Below, piece after piece: positions 21,672 through 37,305 of a stretch of 64,000 nt of DNA. The notes below the pieces were generated by a model. The model had not been told where the DNA came from. It did not search any database and saw only the letters and a program-made list of their open reading frames with translations. The DNA is from Desulfonatronum lacustre DSM 10312 (lineage in GTDB: Bacteria; Desulfobacterota; Desulfovibrionia; Desulfovibrionales; Desulfonatronaceae). The stretch lies in contig NZ_KI912608.1 of the NCBI RefSeq assembly GCF_000519265.1, positions 199,665 to 263,664 on the forward strand, read 5' to 3'. The translations under genes and the position numbers were made by a program. The number at the start of each line of letters is the position of its first letter. Position 1 is the first letter of the stretch.

Positions 21672-22829
21672 ATGATCCGACTTGAAGATGAAATCCTGAC
21701 CTTGCTGGAGGCTGGAGAGTCGGCGGCTCTGGCCACCATTGTCGGTCAAACCGGTTCCGCGCCGCGGACTCCCGGAACCCGGATGGTCGTGCGTCGGGAC
21801 GGTTCCATCCTCGGAACGATCGGGGGCGGACGCCTGGAGGCCGAGGTTATTCAGACCGGGCTGGAGGTCTTGCGTTCCGGTTTCAGCCGACTCCAGCACG
21901 TTACCCTGACCGGCACGGACGCCGGCGATATGGACATGATCTGCGGCGGGGAACTGGACGTGCTGGTGGAGCCGTTGCGTCCGGTTTCCCGAACCATGGA
22001 GCTGTTCCGGCTCCTGGGCCGCCAGCGCGAACAGGGTGGTGATTGGCTTCTGGCCACCGTGCTCCGGGAGTCTCCCGGTGGTCAGGCCGGGCTGCTCTCC
22101 GAGTCGTATCTGGTCCAGCGCTCAGCCTCGGGCTTGCGCTTTTACCCGGAGCAGCCGGACAATCCGGAGCGACTGGCAAGCCTTCCGACAAGCCTTCTGG
22201 AAAAGGTCCGGCTCGAATGTCGCCCGATTCTGTGCATGGCCGGAGACTCACGAGTGGTGATCGAGCCGATTCGGGCCAAGGAGACGGTGCATCTGTTCGG
22301 CGCGGGCCATGTCGCCAGAGAAGTGGCGATCCTGGCCCACCGGGTGGATTTTCGCGTGGAAGTCCATGACGACCGGCCCGACTTCGCCAACCCGGAGCGT
22401 TTCCCGCTGGCCGACGCCGTCCACGTCCCGGAGAACATGGGTCATGCTCTGACCCAGGATGGGTGCCGAATCGACGGGAACAGCTACGTGGTCATCGTCA
22501 CCAGGGGCCATACGCACGACATGGACGTCCTGGCCCAGGCCCTTGGCACCCAGGCCGCCTACATCGGTATGATCGGCAGTCGCCGCAAGCGGGACGCCAT
22601 CTACGCGGCCCTGCGCGGGCAAGGCTTCCGTCAGGACAATCTCTCCGGCGTCCACTGCCCCATCGGCCTGGATATCAACGCCCAAACCCCCGCCGAGATC
22701 GCCCTGAGCATCGTTGCGGAACTGGTGAAAATCCGCGCGATTGCAAGGTCCGCGATGGGGGGCCGTGACAACCTCCGGCTTCTTGCTATCGAAGGATCGC
22801 GAGCGCTACCCGCGAAGCGTGGCCGCTAG
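21672..22829 (+). CDS. XdhC/CoxI-family molybdenum enzyme maturation protein
   Basis: A 385-aa protein with the XdhC_CoxI domain at the N-terminus (TGSAPRTPGTRMVVRRDGSILGTIGGGRLE) and a Rossmann XdhC_C domain after about residue 190 (VHLFGAGHVAREVAIL, VIVTRGHTHDMDVL, IGMIGSRRKRD). Such proteins bind and modify the molybdenum cofactor, for example by sulfuration, for xanthine-dehydrogenase-family enzymes. In selenium users they can also serve Se-dependent hydroxylases. No hydroxylase gene is in the window. The 3' end overlaps the convergent HAD gene by 24 bp. Confidence 0.9.
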   Translation: MIRLEDEILTLLEAGESAALATIVGQTGSAPRTPGTRMVVRRDGSILGTIGGGRLEAEVIQTGLEVLRSGFSRLQHVTLTGTDAGDMDMICGGELDVLVEPLRPVSRTMELFRLLGRQREQGGDWLLATVLRESPGGQAGLLSESYLVQRSASGLRFYPEQPDNPERLASLPTSLLEKVRLECRPILCMAGDSRVVIEPIRAKETVHLFGAGHVAREVAILAHRVDFRVEVHDDRPDFANPERFPLADAVHVPENMGHALTQDGCRIDGNSYVVIVTRGHTHDMDVLAQALGTQAAYIGMIGSRRKRDAIYAALRGQGFRQDNLSGVHCPIGLDINAQTPAEIALSIVAELVKIRAIARSAMGGRDNLRLLAIEGSRALPAKRGR

Positions 22830-23276
22830 ACGGAGAGGGTGGCGCAGGAGGTCCAGGGCGTCCAGGATGGAGCTGCAGACCACGTCCGCGGCGGCCAAGG
22901 TATGGGCGGCCGCCCCTTCCTCCTGGAGCAGGGCGATGCCCAGGGCCGCTTCCCGGAGCATCAAGGCATCATTGCGGCCGTTGCCCATGGCCGCGGACAG
23001 GGTGGGATCGAAAGCCCGCAGATGGTCGGCCTTGGCTTGGGCTTGGTTTTGGGATGGGATGATCAAAAGGTCGCAGGGGAGCGTTCCCAGTGCTTCCCGG
23101 ACGCTGCCGAAGGTGTCCGCGGTAAGGACGTGGATGTCCAGGTGCCGGGACAACTCCTCCAGGCGCTGTGCGACGCCGGGCAGAAGACGTCCGTCCAGGG
23201 CCAGGGTACCGTTGTAATCCAGGAAGAGGTGGGCCAGACGCAGCGTTTTCCAGCCTGGAACGTCGATGTGCAACAT
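22806..23276 (-). CDS. HAD-superfamily hydrolase (soluble P-type ATPase-like, COG4087)
   Basis: A 156-aa single-domain HAD protein. The nucleophile motif is FLDYNGTLALDG (first Asp in DYNGT), the second motif VLTADTFGS, and the acidic motif MGNGRNDALMLREA. It lacks a cap domain, as in the COG4087 family that resembles the phosphorylation domain of P-type ATPases. The physiological substrate is unknown. GAAGGA lies upstream of ATG 23276. It begins 21 bp after the double-cubane reductase gene, so it is probably the last gene of that operon. Confidence 0.85.
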   Translation of the reverse strand: MLHIDVPGWKTLRLAHLFLDYNGTLALDGRLLPGVAQRLEELSRHLDIHVLTADTFGSVREALGTLPCDLLIIPSQNQAQAKADHLRAFDPTLSAAMGNGRNDALMLREAALGIALLQEEGAAAHTLAAADVVCSSILDALDLLRHPLRLAATLRG

Positions 23277-23297: not shown

Positions 23298-24458
23298 TCA
23301 GCTCATTTCCACTACTTCCAGAAACGCCTCGATGCGCGTCCGGAGTTGTTCCGTGTCCGACTCCGAGTAGTCGGTTTCAATGTGCAGAAACGGAATGTTC
23401 AACGTCTGTTCAGCCAGTGTTTTTATTCCGTGGGCTTCGACGTTGTAGGTGTGGCAGCATTGCCAGGTCTGGTCGACGATGCCTTGGACCTTGAAATCTC
23501 GGGTAAGTCTGGAGATCAGGTCGAACCGACCCTGGTTGGGGGTCATGCAGGAGCAGGGGGTGCGCAGGTAGCGGCGGGCCAGGGCCTCGAACGGGTCGAC
23601 GGTTTCCTCCACAAGAAGGTCGAAATTCTTGAAGCCGGTGCAGTTTTCCAGACAGACCACCACGGCCCCGCTGTCCTCGATCAGTTTCAAGACCTTGTCC
23701 GATCCTTTGCCCACCGGGCATCCGGTGAGCAGAATGCGCGGCGCGTCGGGGCCGCGGACGGACAGACCCCGAGCCTTCATCTCGGTCAGTTCCTGAACCA
23801 GAGTTTCCAGCAGTCCGGCGAACTCGGGCAGATTCACGACAAACGACGAACTTTCAAAAACACGCATGGCGTCCAGGCCGGAAAGTGGGACCGGATGGTC
23901 GTCGGCCAGGTAGGCGATTTCCTTCAGGAGCCGTCGCACCCGGTTGGCGTCACGGATTTCTCGCTGGATCCGGTCCCGGGTGACCCGTTGCCCGGTGGTC
24001 TGTTCGAGAAAGGCTTGCATGCGCTGGATCTGGTCCATCCAGAAGGCCAGGGCCGTGGCGTCGTCCTGCAGATAGGGCAGGTGGAGCAGGTGCAGCGGCT
24101 TGATGTCTTGGAGCAGCTCGAACATCTTCTTCTTGCCGTCGCAGGTTGTCTCCCCGAGGATGAAATCACTGGCCGCGAAGAAGGGGCAGGTGTCCGTGAC
24201 GGCATAGCCGTAACTGGATTTGATCAAGGGACAGAGGTTGGCTGGAAGGTGCTTTTCAGCAGCCCCGATGGGCTCCTGCTTCTTTCCGCACAGGGAAACG
24301 GGCACGGCCCCGGCGGCCCGGACCAATTCCAACGGCGCGTAGGTGCAGAACACCCCGGCGATTTTCGTACCTTCTCGGCGGGCCGTATCCAGGTCCAACA
24401 GGCTCTTTTCCGCCCAGTTCTCGAACCTGGTGAAGCACTGGGGTTTTGGCGTTGTCAT
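23298..24458 (-). CDS. Double-cubane-cluster reductase (2-hydroxyacyl-CoA dehydratase D-like)
   Basis: A 386-aa cytoplasmic protein of the 2-hydroxyacyl-CoA dehydratase/HgdB family. The stretch CPLIKSSYGYAVTDTCPF and the motif TTCDGKKKMFELL are characteristic of the double-cubane-cluster protein (DCCP) branch, which holds an [8Fe-9S] cluster and reduces small molecules after ATP-driven electron injection by an activase. Many cysteines are conserved (FCTYAPLE, TGCPVGKG, CENCTG-like ENCTG, TPCSCMTPN, WQCCHTY). The start at ATG 24458 is backed by AAGGAAA. It follows the ABC permease by 23 bp. The likely activase is encoded at 36363-37151 and shares a promoter module with this operon. The natural substrate is unknown. 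Confidence 0.87.
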   Translation of the reverse strand: MTTPKPQCFTRFENWAEKSLLDLDTARREGTKIAGVFCTYAPLELVRAAGAVPVSLCGKKQEPIGAAEKHLPANLCPLIKSSYGYAVTDTCPFFAASDFILGETTCDGKKKMFELLQDIKPLHLLHLPYLQDDATALAFWMDQIQRMQAFLEQTTGQRVTRDRIQREIRDANRVRRLLKEIAYLADDHPVPLSGLDAMRVFESSSFVVNLPEFAGLLETLVQELTEMKARGLSVRGPDAPRILLTGCPVGKGSDKVLKLIEDSGAVVVCLENCTGFKNFDLLVEETVDPFEALARRYLRTPCSCMTPNQGRFDLISRLTRDFKVQGIVDQTWQCCHTYNVEAHGIKTLAEQTLNIPFLHIETDYSESDTEQLRTRIEAFLEVVEMS

Positions 24459-24481: not shown

Positions 24482-25438
24482 TTATGGCTGCAATTTGGCC
24501 CGGCTGCGATCCATCCAGGCATAGATGGAAACCGAACCCACGACGATCACCCCGTAGGCCATCCGGGTCCAGAATCCGGAGAAGCCCGCGCTGATGATGC
24601 CCGCCTCGAGCATCCCGATGATCACCGCCCCGATGAGCGTCCCCACGATGGTCCCCGTCCCGCCGAACACGGACGTTCCGCCCACAAAGACCGCGGCAAA
24701 GACCGGCAGCAGATAGCCTTCGCCCTGGGTAGGCCACCAGTTGGCCATTTCCATGCAGACCATGGACCCGCTCAGGGCGGTCAAAGCCCCCAGGAGCATG
24801 AACGCTCCGATTTTCGTCGCTCCCACGTTGATGCCCATGGCTCGGGCCGTTTGGGCGCTGTCCCCGGTGAATTTGACGTTCGCGCCGAAGACATGGCGGT
24901 TCAGGACCAGCCACAACACGGCGACCAATCCCAGGCACCAAAGCGCCTGGGCCGGGATGCCCCAGAACAGGCGGCCCACGAAGAAGGTATGGGTCACGGT
25001 GTCCCGAATGGCCACAATATTGATGGCCAGGCCGGAGCTGACGACCATGGTGAAACCGCTCCAGAAGAACTGGGTGCCGATGGTGGCGATGATCGAGGGC
25101 ACCCCGATTTTGACGACGATCAGACCGTTGATCAGTCCGATCAGGGCTCCGACGGCCATGGCCGCGACGAGGCCCAGGAGGGGATGGCCTCCGCCGGCAA
25201 AGATCATGGAAAAGACGAATCCTGCCAGGGCCATGGTGGAGGGGAAGCTCAGATCGATTTCCCCGCTGATGATCACGAAGGTCGCCCCGAGGGCCACGAT
25301 GGCCGGAAAGGGGATGATGGACATGTAGGAGAGGTAGATGCGGGAGGAGAGAAAAGTCTCCGGGCTGAGCAGGATGAAGACGCTCAAGACGATACCCAGG
25401 ATCAGAAAAATGGTGCAGTTGACGTTGCAAATTTTCAT
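24482..25438 (-). CDS. Sugar-type ABC transporter permease (RbsC/BPD_transp_2 family)
   Basis: A 318-aa inner-membrane permease with about nine to ten hydrophobic helices. The family signatures are LGATFVIISGEIDLS near residue 52, GLINGLIVVKIGVPSIIATIG, and VFAAVFVGGTSVFGGTGTIVGTLIGA near residue 245. This class imports ribose, xylose, autoinducer-2, inositol or other small ligands using a periplasmic binding protein. It overlaps the ATPase gene by 4 bp (ATGA). Its binding protein is the gene at 30212-31207, separated by an intervening phosphonate-type transporter. Substrate unknown. Confidence 0.92.
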   Translation of the reverse strand: MKICNVNCTIFLILGIVLSVFILLSPETFLSSRIYLSYMSIIPFPAIVALGATFVIISGEIDLSFPSTMALAGFVFSMIFAGGGHPLLGLVAAMAVGALIGLINGLIVVKIGVPSIIATIGTQFFWSGFTMVVSSGLAINIVAIRDTVTHTFFVGRLFWGIPAQALWCLGLVAVLWLVLNRHVFGANVKFTGDSAQTARAMGINVGATKIGAFMLLGALTALSGSMVCMEMANWWPTQGEGYLLPVFAAVFVGGTSVFGGTGTIVGTLIGAVIIGMLEAGIISAGFSGFWTRMAYGVIVVGSVSIYAWMDRSRAKLQP

Positions 25439-26214
25439 GAATGGCCACCTGGCCGAGTCGGGACCTCGCCATCGGCAATGCGGATCATGATCTTGATCAG
25501 CTCTTCCAGGGTCGTCCCGTCCTTGGGAAGGTCCAGAGCGATCTTCCCTTTGTCTACGATCACGAACCTGTCCGCTACGGCATGCACCTGGTTCATGTTG
25601 TGCGATATGTAGACGCAGGCCTTTCCTTCCCGCTTGATGTGCCGGACAAAGGACAAAACGTTGTCGACCTCGCGCAGGGACAGGGCCGTGGTCGGCTCAT
25701 CCAGCACGACGATCCGGGAATTGAAGTGCATGGCTCGGCCGATGGCCACGCCTTGCCGCTCCCCGCCGGAAAGGGTTCCGGCTATGGTCTCGGGCCGAAG
25801 ATTGCTGGCCTGGAGCCCGAGAATGTTCCCAAGAATTTCCCGGGTCACGCGCATCTCGGCCGCCACGTCGATGAAGCCCCAGCGATTGGTCAGGTGTCTG
25901 CCCACGAAGAAATTGCTCCACAGAGGCTGCTTCTCTCCCAGGGATTTATCTTGAAAAACAGTCTCGATGCCCAGCTTGCGAGCCTTGGCCACGGTGTGCC
26001 CGCGAGGGTCGATGGCTTGCCCGTTGATGTGCATGGTCCCGGCATCCGCCCGGGTCACGCCGGCCAGGATCTTGATCAAGGTGGACTTGCCCGCGCCGTT
26101 GTCACCCAACAGGCCGACCACCTCGTTGGAGCCGAGGGCAAAGCTCACGTCGTCCAGGGCTTTGATCTCTCCATAGGACTTGGAGATGTTGGCCATATCC
26201 ACAGTATAGGTCAC
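25435..26214 (-). CDS. Sugar-type ABC transporter ATP-binding protein (single nucleotide-binding domain)
   Basis: A 259-aa ATPase with Walker A GDNGAGKSTLIK, signature LSGGERQGVAIGRA, Walker B VVLDEPTTAL and the H-loop ISHNMN. The phrase SGGERQGVAI is typical of the RbsA/XylG/CUT2 class, but only one nucleotide-binding domain is present instead of the usual two in RbsA, so it must work as a homodimer. The GTG start at 26214 has GGAG about eight bases upstream. It is translationally coupled to the permease downstream. A 138-bp gap with no visible gene separates it from phnE upstream. Confidence 0.92.
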   Translation of the reverse strand: MTYTVDMANISKSYGEIKALDDVSFALGSNEVVGLLGDNGAGKSTLIKILAGVTRADAGTMHINGQAIDPRGHTVAKARKLGIETVFQDKSLGEKQPLWSNFFVGRHLTNRWGFIDVAAEMRVTREILGNILGLQASNLRPETIAGTLSGGERQGVAIGRAMHFNSRIVVLDEPTTALSLREVDNVLSFVRHIKREGKACVYISHNMNQVHAVADRFVIVDKGKIALDLPKDGTTLEELIKIMIRIADGEVPTRPGGHS

Positions 26215-26352: not shown

Positions 26353-28260
26353 TCAGCAGCTGACCCTGGACAGGTTCATCATTCGGGAGATGCGATCAAT
26401 AATTATTGTCAGGGCGATGATCATCAGCAAATAGGTTCCGGCACGCTCGAAGCGGAACCACTCGAAATTGAATGTGAAGAAAAAGCCCAGTCCACCGACG
26501 CCGACAATTCCGAAGACCACGGCCGTTCGGACGTTGCTCTCAAATTGGAAGAAGCTGTAGGTCATCCAGTCCCGCCAGGACATGGCCCCCGCTGTGTAGG
26601 CAAAACAGTTCAGGCGTGATCCGATGAAGGACTGTTCGAATCGCCTGTACGGAATATTGTCCACGGACTCGCTGAAAACCCGCACCAGGACTCCCATGCT
26701 GTGAATGGCGATGGCAATGGTACCAGCCAGCAGCCCTGGGCCGAAAAAGGCGATGAACAGAAAGGCCCACATCACGTCAGGTATGCCGCGTGAGATAAGC
26801 CCCGTGCCTTTGGCCACGACCAACTGCGCCATTCGCTGGACACGAACCCACCACGGCGGAGACTCTCCGGAAAAATGCGACGATTCCACCATGAAGGCAT
26901 AAGAGTGGGGGTAGGTCAGAGCCATGGCCGCAAGCACCCCCATCAATGTCCCGACAATGGCCATGGCCAGAGGGATCGAGGAAGATTTGACGACCCGCCA
27001 GACAAACCATTTGCGAAGTTCCAGTTCCCAGGCCACCCAGGCCGAGGGTTTCCAGAACTCTCGAAAACGGTATTCCGCGAACAGGTCCACCGTCTTTCCT
27101 TCTGCTTGCAGGGCACGGACCTTTTCCCGGTCGCCGAGGCCGACAGCTTCCAGATCCAGTTCCGGATTGAGCATCCGCTCGAAGAATTTCAGGTTTTGCC
27201 ATGACTCGGAAGTAATCAGCTTGATGGCCGGTTCCAAGTAGTTGCGACTTTGCTGACTCGGGGGCGCATTGTCGCCCCAGCCCATGAACCACACCGACCA
27301 GCACACCACCAGCAGGGTAAAACCCACACCGACATAAGCCCGGGAAAGCTGACCAAAAGTGGATTTTGCCCGCACCGTGCGCGGATGGTTCGGGTCGCTG
27401 CGCAGTTGGCGACGGATGAAGTTGCTGGCCAGATCGGCTGTCAAGGTCAGGGCCAAGGTGAACAAGAGCAGCGTCGTCACCTTGGACCAAGCGCCGAACT
27501 GAATCTGGTACCAGATGTCGGCGCCAAGTCCGCCCCCGCCCACCGCGCCGATGACGGCGGCGTTCCGAATGGCGCATTCGGCGCGCATCAAGGTGAAACT
27601 TTGCACGCTGCGCGCCGCCAGGGGGGCGATGCCGTAAAAGAGGGTCGCCAAGCGGCCTCCTCCGAGGATTCGGACTTGCTCGTACGAACTTTCCTCGACG
27701 CTGTCCCATAATTCGCTGTAAACCTTGGCCAGAATTCCGGTGATGTTCAAGGCCAAGGCCAATGCGCCGGTCAACGGTCCGAGTCCGATGACCGCCACCA
27801 GGATGACCGCCCAGACAAAATCCGGAACGGCTCGCAGAATGTCCTGGGTCAGGCGGCAGAGAGAACACATCAGGGCTGCTGGACTGCGCAAGGGAAAATG
27901 GCGCATCCAGCCACGAGCTTTTTCTTCCCCGACCATTACGTTCTGAGCGGACCCCATGGCCAGCAACGAGGCCAGAACAACGGCCAAAGAGATGCCCAGG
28001 ATCGCCGCGGAAAGCGTTTGCAGGGTCAGAGCCCAGCTGTGTTTCAGGAATTCCGGGCTGAAATCCGGAGATGAGAAGGTTTTGATCCAAGCCAGCATTC
28101 GAGTGAAGGCTTGGCTGCGTTGCTGCGAATCAAGAAGAGAGGAGAAGTCCCATTCAGCCGAAGTGAACGCCCCGGCCACCAGGACGAGAATGATGACCAT
28201 GCCGGCCCAATGCTTCCAAGGTCGCTTCGAGCCGTACCGATCAAGTTGCCTTGGTTTCAT
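26353..28260 (-). CDS. phnE: Phosphonate/phosphite-type ABC transporter permease, two domains fused (PhnE-PhnE)
   Basis: A 635-aa membrane protein that carries two complete binding-protein-dependent permease domains in one chain. The first has AVPDFVWAVILVAVIGLGPLTGALAL and ECAIRNAAVIGAVGGGGLG (about residues 140-260). The second repeats this with GIPDVMWAFLFIAFFGPGLLAG and ESNVRTAVVFGIVGVGGLG (about residues 510-620). Most PhnE proteins are single-domain homodimers, so this is a fusion of two copies. The start at 28260 overlaps the end of phnC by ATGA. Together with phnC and phnD this makes a complete importer for phosphonate, phosphite or a related oxyanion. A selenate-type assignment cannot be excluded. 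Confidence 0.88.
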   Translation of the reverse strand: MKPRQLDRYGSKRPWKHWAGMVIILVLVAGAFTSAEWDFSSLLDSQQRSQAFTRMLAWIKTFSSPDFSPEFLKHSWALTLQTLSAAILGISLAVVLASLLAMGSAQNVMVGEEKARGWMRHFPLRSPAALMCSLCRLTQDILRAVPDFVWAVILVAVIGLGPLTGALALALNITGILAKVYSELWDSVEESSYEQVRILGGGRLATLFYGIAPLAARSVQSFTLMRAECAIRNAAVIGAVGGGGLGADIWYQIQFGAWSKVTTLLLFTLALTLTADLASNFIRRQLRSDPNHPRTVRAKSTFGQLSRAYVGVGFTLLVVCWSVWFMGWGDNAPPSQQSRNYLEPAIKLITSESWQNLKFFERMLNPELDLEAVGLGDREKVRALQAEGKTVDLFAEYRFREFWKPSAWVAWELELRKWFVWRVVKSSSIPLAMAIVGTLMGVLAAMALTYPHSYAFMVESSHFSGESPPWWVRVQRMAQLVVAKGTGLISRGIPDVMWAFLFIAFFGPGLLAGTIAIAIHSMGVLVRVFSESVDNIPYRRFEQSFIGSRLNCFAYTAGAMSWRDWMTYSFFQFESNVRTAVVFGIVGVGGLGFFFTFNFEWFRFERAGTYLLMIIALTIIIDRISRMMNLSRVSC

Positions 28261-29093
28261 TGGCAGGCTGGACCAGGACACTTTTTTGTTTCGATGCTCT
28301 GCTCGTTCAAGTGCATCACTCGATATTCCGCCCCGTAGAGTTCGCGCAGCAGTTCGCCGGATATCTGTTCAGGCGTGCCGGACCAGAAAATCCGACCGTC
28401 TTGCAAGGCGATGACCCGTTCAAAATGACCGTGCAGCAGTTCAAGGGTGTGCAGGTTGACCAGAAGCGTGGTGCCCAACGAAGCGGCAATGCCGTTCAGT
28501 AGTTCAATGATCTCCCGTCCAAGGCGAATATCCAGTTGGCTGACCGGCTCGTCCGCAAGCATCACCCGGGGCTGCTGCACCAGCAGACGAGCCATGGCCA
28601 CGCGCTGCTGCTGGCCACCGGACAACTCTCCCGGCATGGCCCAGAGCTTGTCCTGGAGTTCGACCCTGGTCAAAGCCGCCTTGGCCAGGTGCAGATTCTG
28701 CGGCCAAATTAAGGAGAGCAAGGCCCGTGGCAGGGACCACCGCCCGAGTCGGCCCATCAGGACGTTGTGTACGACTCGCAAGTGCGGGATCAGGTTGTCT
28801 GTCTGGTAAAGGATGCCGATTTCCCTGCGCAGTTTGCGCAACGACCTGCCTCGCAACCCTTTCGTGTCCCGACCAAGTGTCGTGATCCGTCCGGTGGTGG
28901 GCTTGAGCACGGCGCTGAGCAACCGAAACAAGGTTGTTTTCCCGGCTCCCGAGGGGCCGATTACGGCCAGCCGTTCCCCTTCGAATATGTCCAGGGAAAT
29001 GTCCCGCAACACCGCGGCATGTCCGAAGGACATGCCGACATGCTCGAGGTGAAATGCCCGCTTCGTGGCCGGCTCGACGCTTTGTTTCGTCAT
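28257..29093 (-). CDS. phnC: Phosphonate-type ABC transporter ATP-binding protein
   Basis: A 278-aa ATPase with Walker A GPSGAGKTTLFRLL, Q-loop in YQTDNLIPHL, signature LSGGQQQRVAMARL and Walker B VMLADEPVSQLD. The wording around the signature and the ADEPVSQLD box is typical of PhnC-type ATPases. ATG 29093 is chosen as the start. The longer frame (to 29147) runs into the intercistronic hairpin at 29121-29158. Downstream it overlaps phnE by 4 bp. Confidence 0.9.
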   Translation of the reverse strand: MTKQSVEPATKRAFHLEHVGMSFGHAAVLRDISLDIFEGERLAVIGPSGAGKTTLFRLLSAVLKPTTGRITTLGRDTKGLRGRSLRKLRREIGILYQTDNLIPHLRVVHNVLMGRLGRWSLPRALLSLIWPQNLHLAKAALTRVELQDKLWAMPGELSGGQQQRVAMARLLVQQPRVMLADEPVSQLDIRLGREIIELLNGIAASLGTTLLVNLHTLELLHGHFERVIALQDGRIFWSGTPEQISGELLRELYGAEYRVMHLNEQSIETKKCPGPACQ

Positions 29094-29120
29094 TGATCGT
29101 AAAAGAAGTGCTGCGAGTGA

Positions 29121-29158
29121 TCGCCAAGGGGATGTTCCCAGGAACATCCCCTTGGCGA
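29121..29158 (-). other. Intercistronic 18-bp perfect hairpin between phnD and phnC
   Basis: The arms at 29121-29138 and 29141-29158 are perfectly complementary, with a 2-base loop (CA). No T-run follows in the direction of transcription, so this is more likely an mRNA-stabilising or attenuating structure after the binding-protein gene than a full terminator. Such hairpins commonly allow higher expression of the binding protein than of membrane components. Confidence 0.75.
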
Positions 29159-29168
29159 AGATTCACCT

Positions 29169-30071
29169 TCAGCCGCCGATGTCCACTCCGGACTTGATCA
29201 AGTCCACGTAGCCCATCCATTCACTCATGTCCGCATCCACGAACTGTTTGGATTTCAGATAGCCGAGAGCTTTTTGGCCTTCGGGTGATTCATGCAGGGA
29301 GAGCAGCGCGGCATGGATTTGCCCGATAAGTTCCGAGCCCAGCGCTTTGCGGGTTGAGAAGTTGTAATTGGTAAATTTGGGCGTGGTGTAGATAATGGGA
29401 GCCTTGAGTTTGAGCTCGTCGGAAGCCCGGTCATACGGTGGCTGGCCCAGTGCGCCGATATGAAATTCCCCATTGGCCACTTTTTGCAGGACCACGTCGT
29501 GACTGCCGCTATAGGCGACGGTTCTGAACACCTCTTCAGGATTTTGCCCGCTTTGGTCGGTGAAAAAACTCCGTGGCATCATGTGGCTGGAAGTGCTGCT
29601 CTTGCTGCCGAATGTGAACGTCCAGTTTTTGTCCTGTGCCAGTTCCGCCAGTTCCTTCAGGTCGTTGACAGGAGGTATTCCCGCGTCCGCATTGGCGATG
29701 AAGTAGCCGATGAATTCCTTGTCGATGTCCCGGGCCGCGATGACTTCCAGCTCATCACCCATCACAATGTACGCCTGAGCCGTGGTCACCGCGCCGAACC
29801 ACGCCAGATCAGCCTGCCCTGTTGCAAGGGCAGTCACGCTGGCGGCGTAGTTGGCCACATGAACATATTCGGTCGGAATGCCGACTTTGTTTTCGATGTG
29901 CTGCGTGATCAGCCCGAAAAATTCGCGCATGTTTTCCGCGCTGTCGTCCGGAATGGCGGTCATGACTAATTTTGAGGGTCTTTCCGCAGTAAAGGCTGGA
30001 AGAGTGCTTCCAGTAACGACCAATCCCAGCGTCCAAATCATAATCATTGCCGACAAAATAATTCGCTTCAC
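29169..30071 (-). CDS. phnD: Phosphonate/phosphite-type (PhnD-like) periplasmic binding protein
   Basis: A 300-aa exported protein. After a signal peptide (hydrophobic segment IILSAMIMIWTLGLVV, cleaved near FTAERP) the mature part shows the PhnD pattern: LVMTAIPDDSAENMREFF, YVHVANYAASVTALATGQADLAWFG near residue 80, and FGSKSSTSSHMMPRSFF near residue 155, which contributes the anion-binding Ser/Thr loop. The GTG start at 30071 has AGGAGG five bases upstream. Putative selenate-binding relatives share this fold, so phosphonate, phosphite or selenate are the candidate ligands. Confidence 0.87.
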   Translation of the reverse strand: MKRIILSAMIMIWTLGLVVTGSTLPAFTAERPSKLVMTAIPDDSAENMREFFGLITQHIENKVGIPTEYVHVANYAASVTALATGQADLAWFGAVTTAQAYIVMGDELEVIAARDIDKEFIGYFIANADAGIPPVNDLKELAELAQDKNWTFTFGSKSSTSSHMMPRSFFTDQSGQNPEEVFRTVAYSGSHDVVLQKVANGEFHIGALGQPPYDRASDELKLKAPIIYTTPKFTNYNFSTRKALGSELIGQIHAALLSLHESPEGQKALGYLKSKQFVDADMSEWMGYVDLIKSGVDIGG

Positions 30072-30211
30072 ATTTTCCTCCTGTAAGGTTTGGTGGTAAT
30101 AATGAAAGGGCCAATTGGTACGCAACGTCTCTTGAATATCGATCAAGAAATTACTCTGAATAACTGGGCCTACGGTGATAATGTCATTTTCCAGGAAACT
30201 GCTTCAATGAA

Positions 30212-31207
30212 TCACCGAACTCCCTTCTTCGCCAGGGGCGCAATCTGGGCGATGTTTTCGGCGTCGATCATCCCGCCGCCGGTGTCGACTTCCAGGCCGG
30301 TGAAGCCGTATTTTTTGGTCAGGACGATCTGGAGCACTCCGAGGTAGCCCATGAGGTAGGGCTGGGCCTCGGAGACAAGGCTGACGTAGCCGTTCTCGAT
30401 GGCCGAGGCCGTGGCCGGGGAAAGGGAGAAGCCGGCCACGAAGATCTTGCCCGGTTCCACGGCGGCGGCGCGCAGGAAGTTTTCCATCTGGGAAGTCAGC
30501 GCGCCGTGGTCCACGATCATCATTTTGCAGTTTGGATTGCTGGAGAGGTAGCCGGTCACCAGGGGCACGCCCATGGAGGTGTCCTTGTCCACTTCCGGGG
30601 AGATTTCATAGTAGTCGACCTTCATGCCCGCGGCCTCCATGACGTCCAGGATGGCCTGGGCCCGCCGACCGCGTTCCTGCAAGCGCTTCAGGCCCCAGAC
30701 GAATACCTGGTCTCCGGGTTCGAGCTGAGCCCGTTTCAGAGCCTCTTCGGCCAGGGCTTTGCCCTGGGCGTAGTTGTCCGTGCCGACGTAACCGAAGCCC
30801 TTGGTCTTGTGGGTGGCAACCATTTTGGACAGTTTTGTGTCCACGCTGGTCACGATGATCCCCTCGGACACCGCCTCGTTGATGAAGGGCTCGTAGGCGT
30901 CGTCCCCGGGATGGCCCATGACCACGATGCCGTCGGGCTTGGCGGCCATGGCCTGCTTGAAGTTGGAGATCATTTTTTCCGGGCTCCAGTCGGAATAGAG
31001 CAGGCGCAGCGTGACCCCCAGATCATCGGCCGCGGCCTGGGCGCCGTTCTGAACAATGGTATTGTACGGCCCGCCTACGCTGCCGCCGGTGTCAAACCAG
31101 ATCGTGACGCCTTTGCCGCTGGGTGTTTTTTGCGCCTCCGCGTGGTTCGCGACAAGCATGGTCAGCAACAACGCCGCAAAGAACAGTAAACCGTACCTGG
31201 TTCTCAT
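30212..31207 (-). CDS. Sugar-type ABC transporter periplasmic binding protein (Peripla_BP_4)
   Basis: A 331-aa exported protein with a signal peptide (LLFFAALLLTMLVANHAEA) and a ribose-binding-protein fold: VTIWFDTGGSVGGPYNTIVQNG at the mature N-terminus, KPDGIVVMGHPGDDAYEPFI near residue 95, and FGYVGTDNYAQGKALAEEAL near residue 150. The start at 31207 has GGGAG nearby. It is the partner of the ATPase and permease at 24.5-26.2 kb but is separated from them by phnDCE. A promoter with a conserved upstream module lies 57 bp upstream (see 31264-31339). The ligand is unknown. Confidence 0.9.
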   Translation of the reverse strand: MRTRYGLLFFAALLLTMLVANHAEAQKTPSGKGVTIWFDTGGSVGGPYNTIVQNGAQAAADDLGVTLRLLYSDWSPEKMISNFKQAMAAKPDGIVVMGHPGDDAYEPFINEAVSEGIIVTSVDTKLSKMVATHKTKGFGYVGTDNYAQGKALAEEALKRAQLEPGDQVFVWGLKRLQERGRRAQAILDVMEAAGMKVDYYEISPEVDKDTSMGVPLVTGYLSSNPNCKMMIVDHGALTSQMENFLRAAAVEPGKIFVAGFSLSPATASAIENGYVSLVSEAQPYLMGYLGVLQIVLTKKYGFTGLEVDTGGGMIDAENIAQIAPLAKKGVR

Positions 31208-31263
31208 GAGCTGCTCCCTCGATTTCAGGTGAAAAAAGTCACATACCCGCATTAGCGTTGCCT

Positions 31264-31339
31264 ACTTAACGCATTTCCGGACTTGGTGTCTAATTGGAAA
31301 AAATAATGCACATTGCACTTGTTGATTGCTTTTTTCGAT
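31264..31339 (-). promoter_or_regulatory. Promoter with conserved upstream module for the binding-protein/double-cubane operon
   Basis: On the minus strand a -35-like TAGACA (31287-31292) is followed after 17 bp by TTAAGT (31264-31269). Upstream, ATCGAAAAAAGC (31328-31339) lies at the same distance from TAGACA as in the promoter region at 37230-37305. The ACATTGCA region between also aligns in part. The start codon of the binding protein is about 57 bp downstream. The promoter assignment is inference from the matching spacing of two sites. Confidence 0.6.
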
Positions 31340-31342
31340 GTT

Positions 31343-31842
31343 TGGCAGTGTTTTTCGCCTGTCTTTGAATATGAATATTTTAAAAAAAATAGCGTGTTAG
31401 TGACTAAAACAGTGTTCGCGTCTAAATTTTGACGATATTTGTTGTCACCTGCACTTGGATGTGCTGCCTTTTTGTTGAGAATTTGAAGTCAATTTTGAAA
31501 CCGAATGCCATTGCTTCAATTCAATAGAAAAACTCTATTTGACATTATTTGTCTTTGATCGTAGCAGGCCACATATGCTTAAAACAAAAGATATTCATTC
31601 GGGTGCATCGATGAAACCTTGCTGTTTCCATCACAAAGGCATCTGAGCATTCTTTGCTTCGGGGCGAGGTCGTCCCGCTATTGCAATGGAAGCTCAAATC
31701 CTTTTTGAACGCCATGCTTCTACAAGCCAATGGACGTCGGTTGACGCCGTCCGACCACCCTCAGCCCCGCTCCACGGGACACCTGTCGCATAGCAGGCGT
31801 CCACCTTTTCTATTTTTCTTTACAGATATTCTTTCATTTCTT
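31343..31842. other. AT-rich intergenic region upstream of fdhA, no convincing gene
   Basis: This 500-bp stretch between the divergent binding-protein and fdhA genes is clearly more AT-rich than its surroundings. A TTGACA hexamer at about 31550 might be part of an fdh promoter, and GGACACCTG/CAGGCGTCC near 31777-31803 forms a small hairpin followed by a T-rich stretch. I see no open frame with a credible product. Confidence 0.5.
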
Positions 31843-31880
31843 CGCCGGCCCTTTATCAACTCGTTGATAAAGGGCCGGCG
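31843..31880 (+). terminator. 18-bp perfect hairpin in the fdhA leader (terminator or attenuator)
   Basis: The arms at 31843-31860 and 31863-31880 are perfectly complementary with a 2-base loop, followed by TTCTTTATTG. It ends 107 bp upstream of the fdhA start codon. If transcription starts upstream, this would be a leader hairpin that could terminate or attenuate transcription into fdhAB; alternatively it insulates fdhAB from upstream transcription. Confidence 0.6.
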
Positions 31881-31987
31881 TTCTTTATTGTTCTGGTTTC
31901 AAGGAAGCCTTGATTACCGAAAGGAAGCGGATCCCTCGAGATTTGCCGCAGGGATATATCTGTTCACCCTCAACACAAGGAGATGCC

Positions 31988-34900
31988 ATGCAGATCAGCA
32001 GAAGGAACTTCATGAAGTTTTCGGCCGTAGCCGGTTCGGCCCTGGCCTTCGGCGGTCTGGGATTCAATCTCAGACCCGCCGTGGCCAAGGCTGAATTGTC
32101 GAAATTGCGGGACGCCAAGGAGACAACCTCGGTCTGTTGCTACTGTTCCGTGGGCTGTGGCCTGATCGTCCACACAGCCCTTGGCGGGAAGGGGCGGACC
32201 GTCAACGTGGAAGGGGATCCGGACCATCCCATCAGTGAAGGCTCGCTGTGCGCCAAGGGGGCCTCGGTCTACCAATTGGCCGAGAACGAGAACCGGGTGA
32301 CCAAGGTGCTCTACCGTGCGCCCTATGGCGACAAATGGGAGGAAAAATCCTGGGATTGGGCCATTGACCGAATCGCCCGGAAGGTCAAGGAGGCCAGGGA
32401 CCAGACTTTCGTGACGAGCAATGCCCAGGGGCAGGTGGTCAACCGTACGGACGGGATCGCCCATGTGGGGTCAGCGGCTCTGGATACCGAGGAGTGCTGG
32501 TACCTCCAGGGCCTGATGCGCAGCCTGGGGCTGGTGTACATCGAGCATCAGGCCAGATTGTGCCACAGCTCCAGCGTGCCGTCCCTGGCAGAGTCTTTTG
32601 GTCGCGGGGCCATGACCAACCACTACAACGACCTGATGAACAGCGACTGCATTTTGATGATGGGCGGGAATCCGGCGGAATGTCACCCGGTTTCCTTCAA
32701 ATGGATCATGAAGGCCAAGGAGCGGGGCGCGACGCTGATCAGCGTGGATCCGCGCTTCAACCGGACCTCCAGCAAGGCCGACATCTACGCCCCGATGCGC
32801 TCCGGTACGGACATTCCCTTTCTGGGGGGGATGATCAAGTATATCCTGGACAATGAAATGTATTTCAAGGACTACGTGGTCAACTACACCAACGGCGCCT
32901 TCCTGGTGAACCCGGAATTCGGCTTTGACGACGGGCTGTTCACAGGCTGGGATCCAGAGAAAAACGCCTACGACAAGTCGACCTGGACCTATCAGTTGGA
33001 CGACAAGGGCGTGCCCAAGCGCGACCTGTCTTTGAAGGACAAGAATTGCGTGTTCCAACTGCTCAGGAAGCACTACGACCGGTACACCCTGGACCGGGTC
33101 TCTGAGACCACCGGCACGCCCAAGGACAAGTTGCTGGAAGTCTACAAGGTGTATTCGGCAACAGGAAAACCGGACAAGTCCGGGACCAACACCTATGCCA
33201 TGGGCTGGACCCAGCACACCATCGCGGTCCAGTTGATCCGGACCATGGCCATGATCCAGCTCCTGCTGGGCAACGTGGGCAACGCCGGCGGCGGAGTGAA
33301 CGCCCTGCGTGGCGAGGCCAATGTCCAGGGCTCCACGGACAGCGCTTTGCTCTATCACATCATCCCGGCCTACAATCCCGCTCCCCGGGCGGTCTGGCCC
33401 ACGTTGGCCGATTACAACAAGGCTAACACTCCCGTCAGTCACGATCCCAAGAGCGCCAACTGGTGGCAGAACCGGCCCAAGTACATCGCCAGCCTGCTCA
33501 AGGCCATGTATCCGGACAAGACGCCCGAGGAGAGCTACAACTACATGCCCCGGCTGGACGTGGGCCAGAACTGTTCCTGGCTGGTGATGTTCGACCATAT
33601 GCTGCAAGGCAAGTTCAAAGGCCTGTTCGCCTGGGGCATGAACCCGGCCGTCAGCGGCGCGCACTCCAATAAGACCAGGGAGGCCATGACCAAGCTGGAC
33701 TGGCTGGTCAACGTGAACATCTTCCGGAACGAGACCGGCTCATTTTGGCACGGCCCGGGCATGGACCCCGCCAAGGTCAAGACCGAAGTCTTCATGCTTC
33801 CGGCCGCAGTGTTCTATGAAAAGGAAGGCTCCATCACCAATTCCGGGCGCTGGGCCCAGTGGCGCCATGCCGGTCCCGAGCCGTTGGGAGAGAGCAAGGC
33901 CGACGGGGACATGATGGTCATGCTGCTCAAGCGGTTGAAGGAACTCTACCAGGAGGAAGGAGGCGCGTTTCCCGATCCCGTAGCCGGTTTCACCCTGGAC
34001 GCCGTGGTCACGGACGGCAGGTTCGATCCGGTCAAGATGGCCAAGCTGCACAACGGCTACTTCCTCACCGACAAGAAGATCGGAGACGTGACCTACAAGG
34101 CCGGGACCCAGGTCCCCGGCTTCGCGCTGCTTCAGGACGACGGCTCCACGGCCTGCGCCAACTGGCTGTACTGCGGGTCCTTCACCGAGGCCGGAAACCT
34201 GATGGCCCGCCGCGACAAGACCCAAACCGAGATGCAGGCCAACATCGGTCTGTTCCCCAACTGGGCCTGGGCCTGGCCGGTCAACCGACGGGTCCTGTAC
34301 AATCGGGCTTCCGTGGACCAGCAGGGGATGCCATTTGCCCCGCAAAAAGCGGTCATCAAATGGGAGCAGGGCAAGTGGGTCGGCGACGTACCCGACGGCC
34401 CCTGGGCTCCTTCGGAGAGACACCCCTTCATCATGACCACCGAGGGCTTCGGTCGTCTTTTTGGACCGGGTCTGGTGGATGGACCGTTCCCGGAACACTA
34501 CGAGCCCCTGGAATGTCCCTTTGAAACGCAACCGTTCTCCAGTCAGCTGCATAATCCCACGGCTCTGCACTTTTCCGGGCCATTGGAGAAGCGGGCCGTG
34601 TGTGATCCGCGCTATCCGTTCGTTGGAACCACGTATCGGGTCACCGAGCATTGGCAGACCGGGGTCATGACCCGATGGACCCCATGGCTTCTGGAATGTC
34701 AGCCCCAGATGTTCGCGGAGATCGATCCGGAACTGGCCAGGCTCCGGGGCATCGCCAACGGGGACAAGGTGATCGTGGAGAGCATCCGTGGCCAGGTGGA
34801 GTGCGTGGCCATCGTCACCCCCCGGCTGAAACCCTACAAGGTCATGGGACAAAGCCTGCATATGGTCGGCGTGCCCTGGCACTACGGCTGGGTGCATCCC

Positions 34901-35005
34901 AAGGACGGCGGGGACGCGGCGAACCTGCTGACTCCGGCCGTGGGCGATCCGAACACCGGTATTCCGGAGACCAAGGCGTTCATGGTCAACATCCGCAAGG
35001 CATAG
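31988..35005 (+). CDS. fdhA: Formate dehydrogenase catalytic subunit (periplasmic, Cys-containing)
   Basis: A 1005-aa molybdenum/tungsten enzyme that oxidises formate to CO2. The Tat signal SRRNFMKF at the N-terminus predicts export folded with its partner. A [4Fe-4S] cluster is bound by CCYCSVGCGL and a later Cys in GSLCAKG. The metal ligand is Cys192 (TGC codon at 32561) in RLCHSSSVPSLAESFGRG, where many sulfate-reducer homologues have selenocysteine. The C-terminal molybdopterin-binding domain includes VTEHWQTGVMTRWTPWLLECQP. AAGGAGA supports the ATG at 31988. The beta subunit follows after a 112-bp repeat element. No cytochrome subunit is encoded nearby, so the two-subunit FdhAB type is likely, passing electrons to periplasmic cytochrome c3. 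Confidence 0.94.
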   Translation: MQISRRNFMKFSAVAGSALAFGGLGFNLRPAVAKAELSKLRDAKETTSVCCYCSVGCGLIVHTALGGKGRTVNVEGDPDHPISEGSLCAKGASVYQLAENENRVTKVLYRAPYGDKWEEKSWDWAIDRIARKVKEARDQTFVTSNAQGQVVNRTDGIAHVGSAALDTEECWYLQGLMRSLGLVYIEHQARLCHSSSVPSLAESFGRGAMTNHYNDLMNSDCILMMGGNPAECHPVSFKWIMKAKERGATLISVDPRFNRTSSKADIYAPMRSGTDIPFLGGMIKYILDNEMYFKDYVVNYTNGAFLVNPEFGFDDGLFTGWDPEKNAYDKSTWTYQLDDKGVPKRDLSLKDKNCVFQLLRKHYDRYTLDRVSETTGTPKDKLLEVYKVYSATGKPDKSGTNTYAMGWTQHTIAVQLIRTMAMIQLLLGNVGNAGGGVNALRGEANVQGSTDSALLYHIIPAYNPAPRAVWPTLADYNKANTPVSHDPKSANWWQNRPKYIASLLKAMYPDKTPEESYNYMPRLDVGQNCSWLVMFDHMLQGKFKGLFAWGMNPAVSGAHSNKTREAMTKLDWLVNVNIFRNETGSFWHGPGMDPAKVKTEVFMLPAAVFYEKEGSITNSGRWAQWRHAGPEPLGESKADGDMMVMLLKRLKELYQEEGGAFPDPVAGFTLDAVVTDGRFDPVKMAKLHNGYFLTDKKIGDVTYKAGTQVPGFALLQDDGSTACANWLYCGSFTEAGNLMARRDKTQTEMQANIGLFPNWAWAWPVNRRVLYNRASVDQQGMPFAPQKAVIKWEQGKWVGDVPDGPWAPSERHPFIMTTEGFGRLFGPGLVDGPFPEHYEPLECPFETQPFSSQLHNPTALHFSGPLEKRAVCDPRYPFVGTTYRVTEHWQTGVMTRWTPWLLECQPQMFAEIDPELARLRGIANGDKVIVESIRGQVECVAIVTPRLKPYKVMGQSLHMVGVPWHYGWVHPKDGGDAANLLTPAVGDPNTGIPETKAFMVNIRKA

Positions 35006-35011
35006 CCGTCC

Positions 35012-35123
35012 GTTGAAAAACTCCCAATTGCCGCGTTGCCGCGAAAAGTTCAAATTCTCACGTATGAAGATATACGCTTCGATCTTGAGCTTTTTTTGCG
35101 CATTGCACTTGGGGTTTTTGAAC
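35012..35123. repeat. Miniature inverted-repeat element between fdhA and fdhB
   Basis: The ends GTTGAAAAACTCCCA (35012) and TGGGGTTTTTGAAC (ending 35123) are inverted copies with few mismatches. Inside, AAAGTTCAA and TTGAGCTTT, and CGTAT and ATACG (35060-35075), continue the pairing, so the whole 112 bp can fold into one long interrupted hairpin. It looks like a small mobile or REP-type repeat sitting between two co-transcribed genes. Confidence 0.65.
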
Positions 35124-35171
35124 GAACAGCGGACAGGGACAACTCACACGAAGACTGGAGGAAACTGAGTC

Positions 35172-35897
35172 ATGCAAGGAAAAACGTTTTTCGTCGACCT
35201 GACCAAGTGCACAGCCTGTCGGGGCTGCCAGGTGGCCTGCAAGCAATGGAAGAAGCTGCCCGCCGAGGAAACCAAAAACTGGGGCTCGTTCCAGAACCCC
35301 AAAGATCTGTCCTTCAACACGTTGAAGCTGGTCCGGTTCTCTGAAGTGGAGGAGAACGGGGAGTTCAAGCACTGGTTCTTCTTTCCGGACCAATGCCGGC
35401 ATTGCGTGCATCCGCCGTGCAAGATGGTCGGCGACATGTATGACGACACGGCTATTCTTCACGATCCGGAAACCGGCGCGATCCTTTTCACGGACAGCAC
35501 CAAGAATCTGGACGGCGAGGAGATCCGGATGTCCTGCCCTTACGACATCCCCCGCTGGGATGAAACCAAGGTGCAGGCCAAGTGCGACATGTGTCTGGAC
35601 CGGGTGCAGAATGGGCTGTTGCCGGCTTGCGTGCTGTCCTGTCCCACCGGGACGATGCATTTTGGGGACCGTGAAGAAATGCTGGAACTGGCCGGGAAGC
35701 GCCTGGCCGAAGTCCGGGCCTACCGACCCAACGCCGTGCTGGTTGATCCGGAGGATACGCGGGTTGTCTTTCTGTGCGAGGAAAGCCCCCGCAAGTATCA
35801 CGGCTACGCCATGGCCCATGCGGACGTTCCCGGGGCGCTGAGCCGGAAAAGAATGCTGGCCGCCGCTGTTTCGCCCGTAAGGCGCTTGTTGGGATAA
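35172..35897 (+). CDS. fdhB: Formate dehydrogenase iron-sulfur (beta) subunit
   Basis: A 241-aa electron-transfer subunit with four [4Fe-4S]-type cysteine groups: CTACRGCQVACK near residue 13, CRHCVHPPCK near residue 75, a single C in MSCPYD, and CDMCLDRVQNGLLPACVLSCPTG near residue 140. It takes electrons from FdhA. It has no signal peptide, so it is expected to be co-exported with FdhA by the Tat system. GAAACTGAG before ATG 35172 is a weak ribosome-binding site. It lies 166 bp after fdhA, with most of the gap taken by a repeat. Confidence 0.94.
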   Translation: MQGKTFFVDLTKCTACRGCQVACKQWKKLPAEETKNWGSFQNPKDLSFNTLKLVRFSEVEENGEFKHWFFFPDQCRHCVHPPCKMVGDMYDDTAILHDPETGAILFTDSTKNLDGEEIRMSCPYDIPRWDETKVQAKCDMCLDRVQNGLLPACVLSCPTGTMHFGDREEMLELAGKRLAEVRAYRPNAVLVDPEDTRVVFLCEESPRKYHGYAMAHADVPGALSRKRMLAAAVSPVRRLLG

Positions 35898-35912
35898 GGA
35901 TTCGTCAATTCA

Positions 35913-35961
35913 CAAGGGCCGTGCCCGATCCCCAAATGTTTGGGGATCGGGCACGGCCTTG
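35913..35961 (+). terminator. Strong hairpin after fdhB, probable terminator
   Basis: The left arm starting CAAGGGCCGTGCCCGA pairs with the right arm ending GCACGGCCTTG, with one bulged G; the 18-bp inner stem is perfect and the loop is TG. There is no T-run immediately after, so it may be a factor-dependent terminator or an mRNA 3'-end stabiliser for fdhAB. Confidence 0.65.
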
Positions 35962-35994
35962 TCATGTCAACCTTGTAACCAATCGTAAGGAGAA

Positions 35995-36306
35995 ATGAAG
36001 AAAATGATTGAGATCACCCCTTCCGTGAAGCAGCAACTGGACAACCGACTTTGTCGGCAAGCCCGCGGCCTCGATTCGCGTTTATCTGGCCGCGGGCTGT
36101 GGTGGAGAGCACCTCGCCCTGGCCCTGGACGAGAAGCGGGACACGGACCTGGTCCAGGAAATCAGCGGCTATGCCTTTCTCGTGGACAAGGAATTGAGCG
36201 AGAGAACCGGAGCCATCAAGGTGGACATGACGCCGTATGGATTTTCCGTCACTTCCGAGGTCCAGGTGGGTGGCGGGGGGGTGGGGGAGGGTGCTCCGCC
36301 TGCTGA
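35995..36306 (+). pseudogene. HesB/IscA-like protein gene, frameshifted
   Basis: The N-terminus MKKMIEITPSVKQQLDN is in one frame. After position about 36048 the conserved remainder continues in the next frame as DFVGKPAASIRVYLAAGC, then GGEHLALALDE, SGYAFLVDKEL and a domain end near SEVQVGGGG. At the very end the first frame ends in GGGGGCSAC, a typical Gly/Cys-rich tail of this family. A single extra base near 36048 and a compensating shift near 36270 would restore a protein of about 105 aa. The family relates to HesB-like, sometimes selenocysteine-containing, iron-sulfur or redox proteins; here the Sec position is Cys. It may be a true pseudogene or a sequencing error. A strong AAGGAG precedes the start. 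Confidence 0.6.
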
Positions 36307-36362
36307 GGAGCCGTGTGGTAGTGAATGCAAAAAGGGGCGCGGCTCAGCAGTTGCGTCTCTTT

Positions 36363-37151
36363 TTACGAATCCCGCCGCAACGCGCCGTGCATGGCCGCGC
36401 CCAGAGCGCCGACCATGTCCGGTTGTTCCGGGACGATGATCCGCCCTCCGATCCGTTCCTTTAGCAGATTGACCACGCAAGGGTTGTGGGCCACGCCGCC
36501 CGCAAAGCAGAGTGGCTGCTCCAGGCCGACCCTGCTGAGCATGGCCATGGTTCGTTCCACGATGGCCAAGTGGAGGCCCATGGCGATATTTTGCGGTTGT
36601 TCACCACGGCCCATGAGGGAGGTGGCCTCGGATTCGGCGAAAACAGCGCACATGCTGCTGATTTGCACCTGTTTGTCCGCGGCCAAGGCGAAGTCGCCGA
36701 ACTCCTCGATGGGAACTTGCAGCGAAGTGGCCATGATCTCCAAAAACTTGCCCGTACCCGCGGCGCAGCGGTCGTTCATCTCGAACTTCAGCACCCGGCC
36801 TTCAGACCCTAAAGAGATGACCTTGGTGTCCTGACCGCCGATGTCCAGGACGGTGCGTGCTTCGGGATACAGTTTGGCTGCTCCCAGGGCGTATGCCTGG
36901 ATTTCGGTAATTGCATCGCACGGATTCAGGATGCCGTTTTTCACGAACAGCTTGCGGCCGTACCCGGTGGCCGTGATCCGGCGTACTCGCACTCCCGTGA
37001 GGATCTCGCGACATTGCCGCAAAGGGTCGAAGGTGGTGGGGACTTTGGCTTGGTGCGTGATTTCCCCGGTCGGGCTGAGAACGACCAGTTCGATGGACCG
37101 GGAGCCAATGTCTATACCTGCGGCTCCTTCGGTATATTCGGCGTGTAACAT
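36363..37151 (-). CDS. Acyl-CoA-dehydratase-type activase (BadF/BadG/BcrA/BcrD ATPase; activator of the double-cubane reductase)
   Basis: A 262-aa ASKHA ATPase of the HgdC/CompD type. It shows AAGIDIGSRSIELVVL (phosphate-binding loop), TGYGR, VLDIGGQDTKVISL, and the two cysteines that bridge a [4Fe-4S] cluster at the dimer interface in NDRCAAGTGKFLEIMA and SSMCAVFAESEATSL. Such proteins use ATP to inject low-potential electrons into 2-hydroxyacyl-CoA dehydratases or double-cubane proteins. The only such partner in the window is at 23298-24458. ATG 37151 lacks a good ribosome-binding site; a TTG at 37205 would add 18 residues. A promoter module shared with the partner operon lies about 80 bp upstream. 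Confidence 0.9.
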   Translation of the reverse strand: MLHAEYTEGAAGIDIGSRSIELVVLSPTGEITHQAKVPTTFDPLRQCREILTGVRVRRITATGYGRKLFVKNGILNPCDAITEIQAYALGAAKLYPEARTVLDIGGQDTKVISLGSEGRVLKFEMNDRCAAGTGKFLEIMATSLQVPIEEFGDFALAADKQVQISSMCAVFAESEATSLMGRGEQPQNIAMGLHLAIVERTMAMLSRVGLEQPLCFAGGVAHNPCVVNLLKERIGGRIIVPEQPDMVGALGAAMHGALRRDS

Positions 37152-37229
37152 AAGTGAAAATACTTGATCAAAGGTTGGTTTGCCCCCTCCCAAAATCTCT
37201 TCCAATCAACGGGGAATCATCTTTGAAAT

Positions 37230-37305
37230 CCTTATCGCAATTTTGGGTTTTATGTCTAATTGTAAATAATGATGCATGATTCCTGATTAGATAGCTTTTT
37301 TCGAT
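37230..37305 (-). promoter_or_regulatory. Promoter with conserved upstream module for the activase gene
   Basis: On the minus strand TAGACA (37253-37258) is followed after exactly 17 bp by ATAAGG (37230-37235). ATCGAAAAAAGC (37294-37305) lies 41 bp from the start of the shared TGTCTAATTG (plus-strand reading), the same spacing as at 31264-31339. CAATTAGACA and the TGCG before the -10 are also shared. This suggests common control with the 31.2-kb operon. Confidence 0.6.

Follow-up and report, generated by a model that had tools for sequence, protein, structure and literature searches.

Desulfonatronum lacustre DSM 10312 encodes a double-cubane-cluster reductase (DCCP) in a transporter operon, and the gene for an activase of this kind of protein lies in a separate unit nearby. 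A sequence-only reading of a 64,000-nucleotide stretch of this genome (the window) proposed that both units carry the same promoter words at identical spacing and answer to one regulator. Are these nonadjacent genes controlled together, and if so, by what sort of element? The two regions at issue are the following.

31263..31339, minus strand: regulatory module copy 1, whose 3' end is 55 bp before ATG 31207 of the transporter/double-cubane operon
37229..37305, minus strand: regulatory module copy 2, 77 bp before the activase ATG at 37151

The words are present as described. On the minus strand, ATCGAAAAAAGC occurs at 31328-31339 and 37294-37305, and CAATTAGACA at 31287-31296 and 37253-37262, with the left ends of the matching blocks offset by 41 bp on the plus strand at both loci. 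TTAAGT or ATAAGG follows 17 bp after the second block, with TGCG in front. The separation of ~5.9 kb with fdhAB in between also holds, the blocks being 5,966 bp apart. The fixed spacing of the words is thus borne out, but they are not three isolated words, because all belong to a single ungapped 77-bp block in which 54 of 77 positions are identical between the copies. When the two 300-bp upstream regions were shuffled 2000 times with dinucleotides preserved, the best 77-bp match had a mean of 36.1 identities (sd 1.5) and a maximum of 43. The flanks of the two copies are unrelated, with a between-locus identity of 23-27% as compared with 66% inside the block. The exact CAATTAGACA occurs only four times in the 3.76-Mb genome, and two of these occurrences are at these copies.

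The genes of the two units, and the formate dehydrogenase gene between them, are listed below.

30212..31207, minus strand: sugar-type (rhizopine-like) periplasmic binding protein, operon gene 1 (Peripla_BP_4; NF052284 below cut-off)
29169..30146, minus strand: PhnD-type binding protein (best NCBIfam model TIGR04553, "putative selenate," 185.7 bits, under the cut-off of 250)
28257..29147, minus strand: PhnC-type ABC ATPase (TIGR02315, below cut-off)
26353..28281, minus strand: double-length PhnE-type permease with two domains (TIGR01097 over cut-off, in two stretches)
25435..26214, minus strand: sugar-type ABC ATPase
24482..25438, minus strand: sugar-type ABC permease (BPD_transp_2)
23298..24443, minus strand: DCCP (NF040772, 491.6 bits, cut-off 350)
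22806..23276, minus strand: small HAD/P-type-ATPase-like phosphatase, last operon gene, conserved with the system
31985..35005, plus strand: fdhA, Cys-type formate dehydrogenase (ARLCHSSS), between the two units
36363..37151, minus strand: activase (ATP-dependent activator of DCCP), 262 aa from ATG 37151 (TIGR00241 over cut-off)

The window DCCP matches the DCCP structures 7yyl and 6eno at 2e-80. It falls within the NF040772 equivalog, and its ligand cysteines are invariant in the alignment, including against 7yyl. The activase is a BadF/BcrA-type ATPase that matches 7yyl_E, the activase chain of the DCCP complex, at 5.8e-46, with 4eht_A and 9gai_D scoring slightly above this chain. The operon had been thought to end at the double-cubane gene, but the HAD-type gene begins only 21 bp after it. 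A scan of the fdhAB operon's own promoter did not find the module. Besides fdhAB, the interval between the blocks holds a hesB/iscA-like gene (window 35995-36306, between fdhB and the activase gene), which is frameshifted.

The sequence-only reading would be refuted if the motif did not recur upstream of orthologous genes. The window's genome (G000) was compared with 120 relatives from its order, and eight genomes represent the sulfate-reducing genus Desulfonatronum. The binding protein is found at E <= 1e-40 in only six other genomes among the 120 relatives, and the carriers of the same genus are G001, G003 and G007. The module is present before the operon in all three of these genomes, and before the activase gene in G005, so that the reading withstands this check. 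The activases of G001 and G003 have no module upstream. Thus, placement of the activase under the module holds in G000 and G005 but fails in these two relatives, and co-control is not universal even within the genus.

A sequence-only model, R1, was built from six sites preceding binding-protein (SBP) and activase genes. A scan with R1 produced two further sites, one in G000 (C1:1872600) and one in G005, and both precede a gene that we call X.

G000:C1:1872600-1872676 (L082:7601-7677): module copy 3 of the window's genome, before X, 1.64 Mb from the window
L082:7742-8362: gene X at 1.87 Mb, encoding a 206-aa uncharacterised protein

Because X had no part in building R1, these sites are the strongest evidence for the module. 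Of the 34 columns without variation among the other six sites, they match 32, as compared with ~42% of the remaining columns. In G001, G003 and G007, the operon driven by the module includes an X orthologue downstream of DCCP, and another orthologue adjoins DCCP in G009. G004 has X without a module, and both DCCP and activase are absent from that genome. No module was found in the 150 bp upstream of X in G006. Searches of X against Pfam, NCBIfam and PDB sequences did not assign it to a family; our impression is only that it has a RelE/ParE-like look. At L082, X is adjoined by an intact homologue of the frameshifted hesB/iscA-like gene.

A second model, R2, was built from all eight sites. Across the eight genus genomes it detects eight strong sites and no more (64-75 bits, with the runner-up at 22 bits), all of which are 55-77 bp ahead of a gene of this system. 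The module is thus present in G000, G001, G003, G005 and G007, and absent from G002, G004 and G006. G000 has only three strong sites (next best, 16 bits), and within the window copy 1 scores 75 bits and copy 2 scores 64.5 bits. The element therefore precedes several transcription units of the same pathway, is conserved at orthologues, and is rare elsewhere in the genome. The 22-bit matches, in G001, G003 and G004 (positions 12-54), were rejected as belonging to the ordinary AT-rich promoter of another gene.

Outside the genus, R1 gave just scattered weak matches among the 120 order genomes. A pattern scan of ~85,000 species returned two genus-type records and three unrelated matches of the kind expected by chance. 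As far as these searches show, the module is confined to Desulfonatronum-type genomes. The same genes are often adjacent outside the genus, where no module was found.

These distributions also bear on whether the blocks are alike only because DNA was recently duplicated, without functional consequence, as genes were rearranged. The genes near fdhAB and hesB clearly occur in shuffled orders from one relative to the next, which would provide the opportunity. However, no residual similarity is left in the flanks, and the conservation follows a pattern in which certain columns stay invariant from locus to locus and from species to species. Moreover, the X sites match what was predicted from other loci, and the orthologous X of G004 lacks the block. 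We consider duplication a very improbable explanation.

The proposal that one regulator co-controls the operon and the activase is supported by the presence of the module at orthologues and by the third site before X. Judged from sequence, the block of ~77 bp is very probably a genuine cis-regulatory module that co-controls separated units of one system. The arrangement strongly suggests that three separated pieces are switched on together. As far as our searches show, this three-unit cis-regulatory set is previously undescribed, although the enzyme system is of a known kind.

The conserved elements of the module are ATcGAAAAA, CAT, ATTAGACA, AA, TGC and TAA. The promoter character ascribed to the block stands in part. 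TAGACA is a possible -35 element that agrees with TTGACA at five of six positions, and TGC-N2-TAA is conserved at the distance of a -10 element, but this "-10" does not have the sigma-70 consensus. The block was rejected as a canonical sigma-70 promoter (TTGACA-16/18-TATAAT), as only the -35-like TAGACA is present. Neither A at -11 nor T at -7 is conserved, which makes the -35/-10 reading a weak one.

These features raise the question of whether the block is simply a core promoter, of an unusual sigma-70 type or for an alternative sigma factor, with no dedicated regulator. The near-consensus TAGACA, the retention of TGC-N2-TAA at the -10 distance, and the occurrence of the -35-like CAATTTGACA at an ordinary promoter in G001 and G003 are compatible with this explanation. 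However, three copies genome-wide are few for a sigma factor, which should have a larger set of target genes, and half of the conserved columns (ATCGAAAAA, CAT) are upstream of any core promoter. In addition, the modules go undetected in a scan for sigma-70 promoters. A plain core promoter is thus improbable in our estimation. Together with the poor -10, the lack of a match in the promoter scan suggests activator dependence.

The blocks are 55-77 bp ahead of start codons and could be partially transcribed, so that a riboswitch-like RNA leader element might be envisioned. However, the block is A+T-rich with fixed spacing, and no stable or covarying structure is evident. The consensus energy is -0.31 kcal/mol, folding is no better than that of shuffled sequences, and an Rfam search returned no family. 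A transcribed RNA element is therefore extremely improbable.

Most likely, then, the module is an activator-dependent promoter. One putative regulator would bind the ATTAGACA/TGC-TAA element, the A-tract element ATCGAAAAA located ~43 bp (four helical turns) upstream, or both. Once bound, it presumably recruits RNA polymerase to a promoter with a poor -10. A search of the module for a dyad or the signature of a known regulator yielded nothing convincing, and no regulator gene is beside any module. Three units would be under this control: (i) the operon for import and the double-cubane reductase; (ii) the ATP-dependent activase, predicted to pump electrons into the double-cubane protein; and (iii) the small protein X, encoded at 1.87 Mb. 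These units probably descend from a single operon, activase-DCCP-transporter-X-HAD, with the genes that split off retaining or acquiring copies of the module.

Independent observations link the activase with DCCP. Among the 120 genomes, 69 have both genes, 42 have neither and nine are discordant (69/4/5/42; Fisher p ~5e-22, in a test that ignores phylogeny). Both genes are thus present in 69 of the 78 order members that have activase or DCCP. Of 45 DCCP-A loci, 27 have an activase gene within 8 kb, and in G008 and G049 the DCCP, transporter and activase genes are still in a single run. In G005, the module-driven activase gene is directly followed by an 80-bp remnant that is 96% identical to the start of DCCP in G000 and G007. 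Behind this remnant, a stretch of 186 bp shares 86% identity with the junction between the DCCP end and the TauA start of G007. Because of this remnant, activase and DCCP probably once shared an operon. G005 is most simply explained by an ancestral operon in which a single module preceded both activase and DCCP, followed by deletion of DCCP in this genome. Thus, co-occurrence, adjacency and the remnant all support the functional link between activase and DCCP, independently of the module.

At 24 of 29 DCCP-A loci in the order (including L117, L121, L123, L047, L115 and L124), a TauABC-like (NMT1-type) ABC importer is encoded no more than 8 kb away. This proximity suggests that DCCP acts on an imported compound.

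The closest characterized counterpart is the pair formed by DCCP and DCCP reductase of Carboxydothermus hydrogenoformans (6eno, 7yyl), as both window proteins match chains of the solved complex. Unlike this pair, DCCP and activase in the window are separate transcription units, and DCCP shares its operon with two kinds of ABC importer. In C. maritimus, the DCCP and activase homologues have neighbouring tags (RS14820/RS14825), and both are down-regulated under CO (PMC7306483). No physiological substrate is known for double-cubane cluster proteins (PMC11971306). A common promoter would tie DCCP, the activase, specific importers and an uncharacterised protein into one functional unit, which makes the inducing condition and the transported ligand directly testable. 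It would also provide a case of a split operon whose parts stay co-controlled.

The selenocysteine-assisted organometal (SAO) transport system offers another comparison. G005 encodes SaoE, SaoX and SaoB over cut-off and a MerB-like SaoL. These genes are behind the module-driven activase gene and beside a second DCCP (L114; G005:C42:9000-26728). SaoE is over cut-off only in G005 among ten genomes searched. The window operon was rejected as an SAO system, because none of SaoX, SaoA, SaoP, SaoL and SaoE is over cut-off among the window genes; unlike those of SAO, the window binding proteins are sugar-type and PhnD-type.

Selenium or organometal chemistry is indicated by several leads, none of which is conclusive. 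DCCP-type and activase genes have been linked to selenium gene neighbourhoods (PMC5322559, PMC10418091). Specifically, HGD-D/DCCP-type and activase genes are reported to be functional neighbours of LysR_Se-associated selenium genes (PMC5322559). The order resembles this situation in that DCCP is beside selD in four genomes (G036, G048, G067 and G018, at <=6 kb, versus 0.31 expected; three of them are of one genus). In contrast to the LysR_Se case, the modules have no identified LysR-type gene next to them, and PMC5322559 does not provide a binding motif for comparison. A further lead is that the best NCBIfam model for the PhnD-type protein is "putative selenate," albeit below cut-off. Also, the window fdhA is of the Cys type, whereas its paralogue at C1:2378682 contains an in-frame TGA (selenocysteine), and this Cys-type fdhA also borders module units in G007 and G005.

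We guess that the inducing signal is scarcity of the imported substrate, possibly selenium, and selenium limitation is the signal that we favour as an unproven guess. A full selenium-limitation response is a tentative and rather unlikely interpretation. In such a response, the operon would import a selenium, organometal or organoselenium compound, the activase-driven DCCP would release the element reductively, and the Cys-type formate dehydrogenase would replace its selenocysteine isozyme. If true, this interpretation would assign a physiological role to the double-cubane protein family and fit X into it. With regard to other genes of the system, X is near selD in G006, and a TauA-like gene is near selD in G066.
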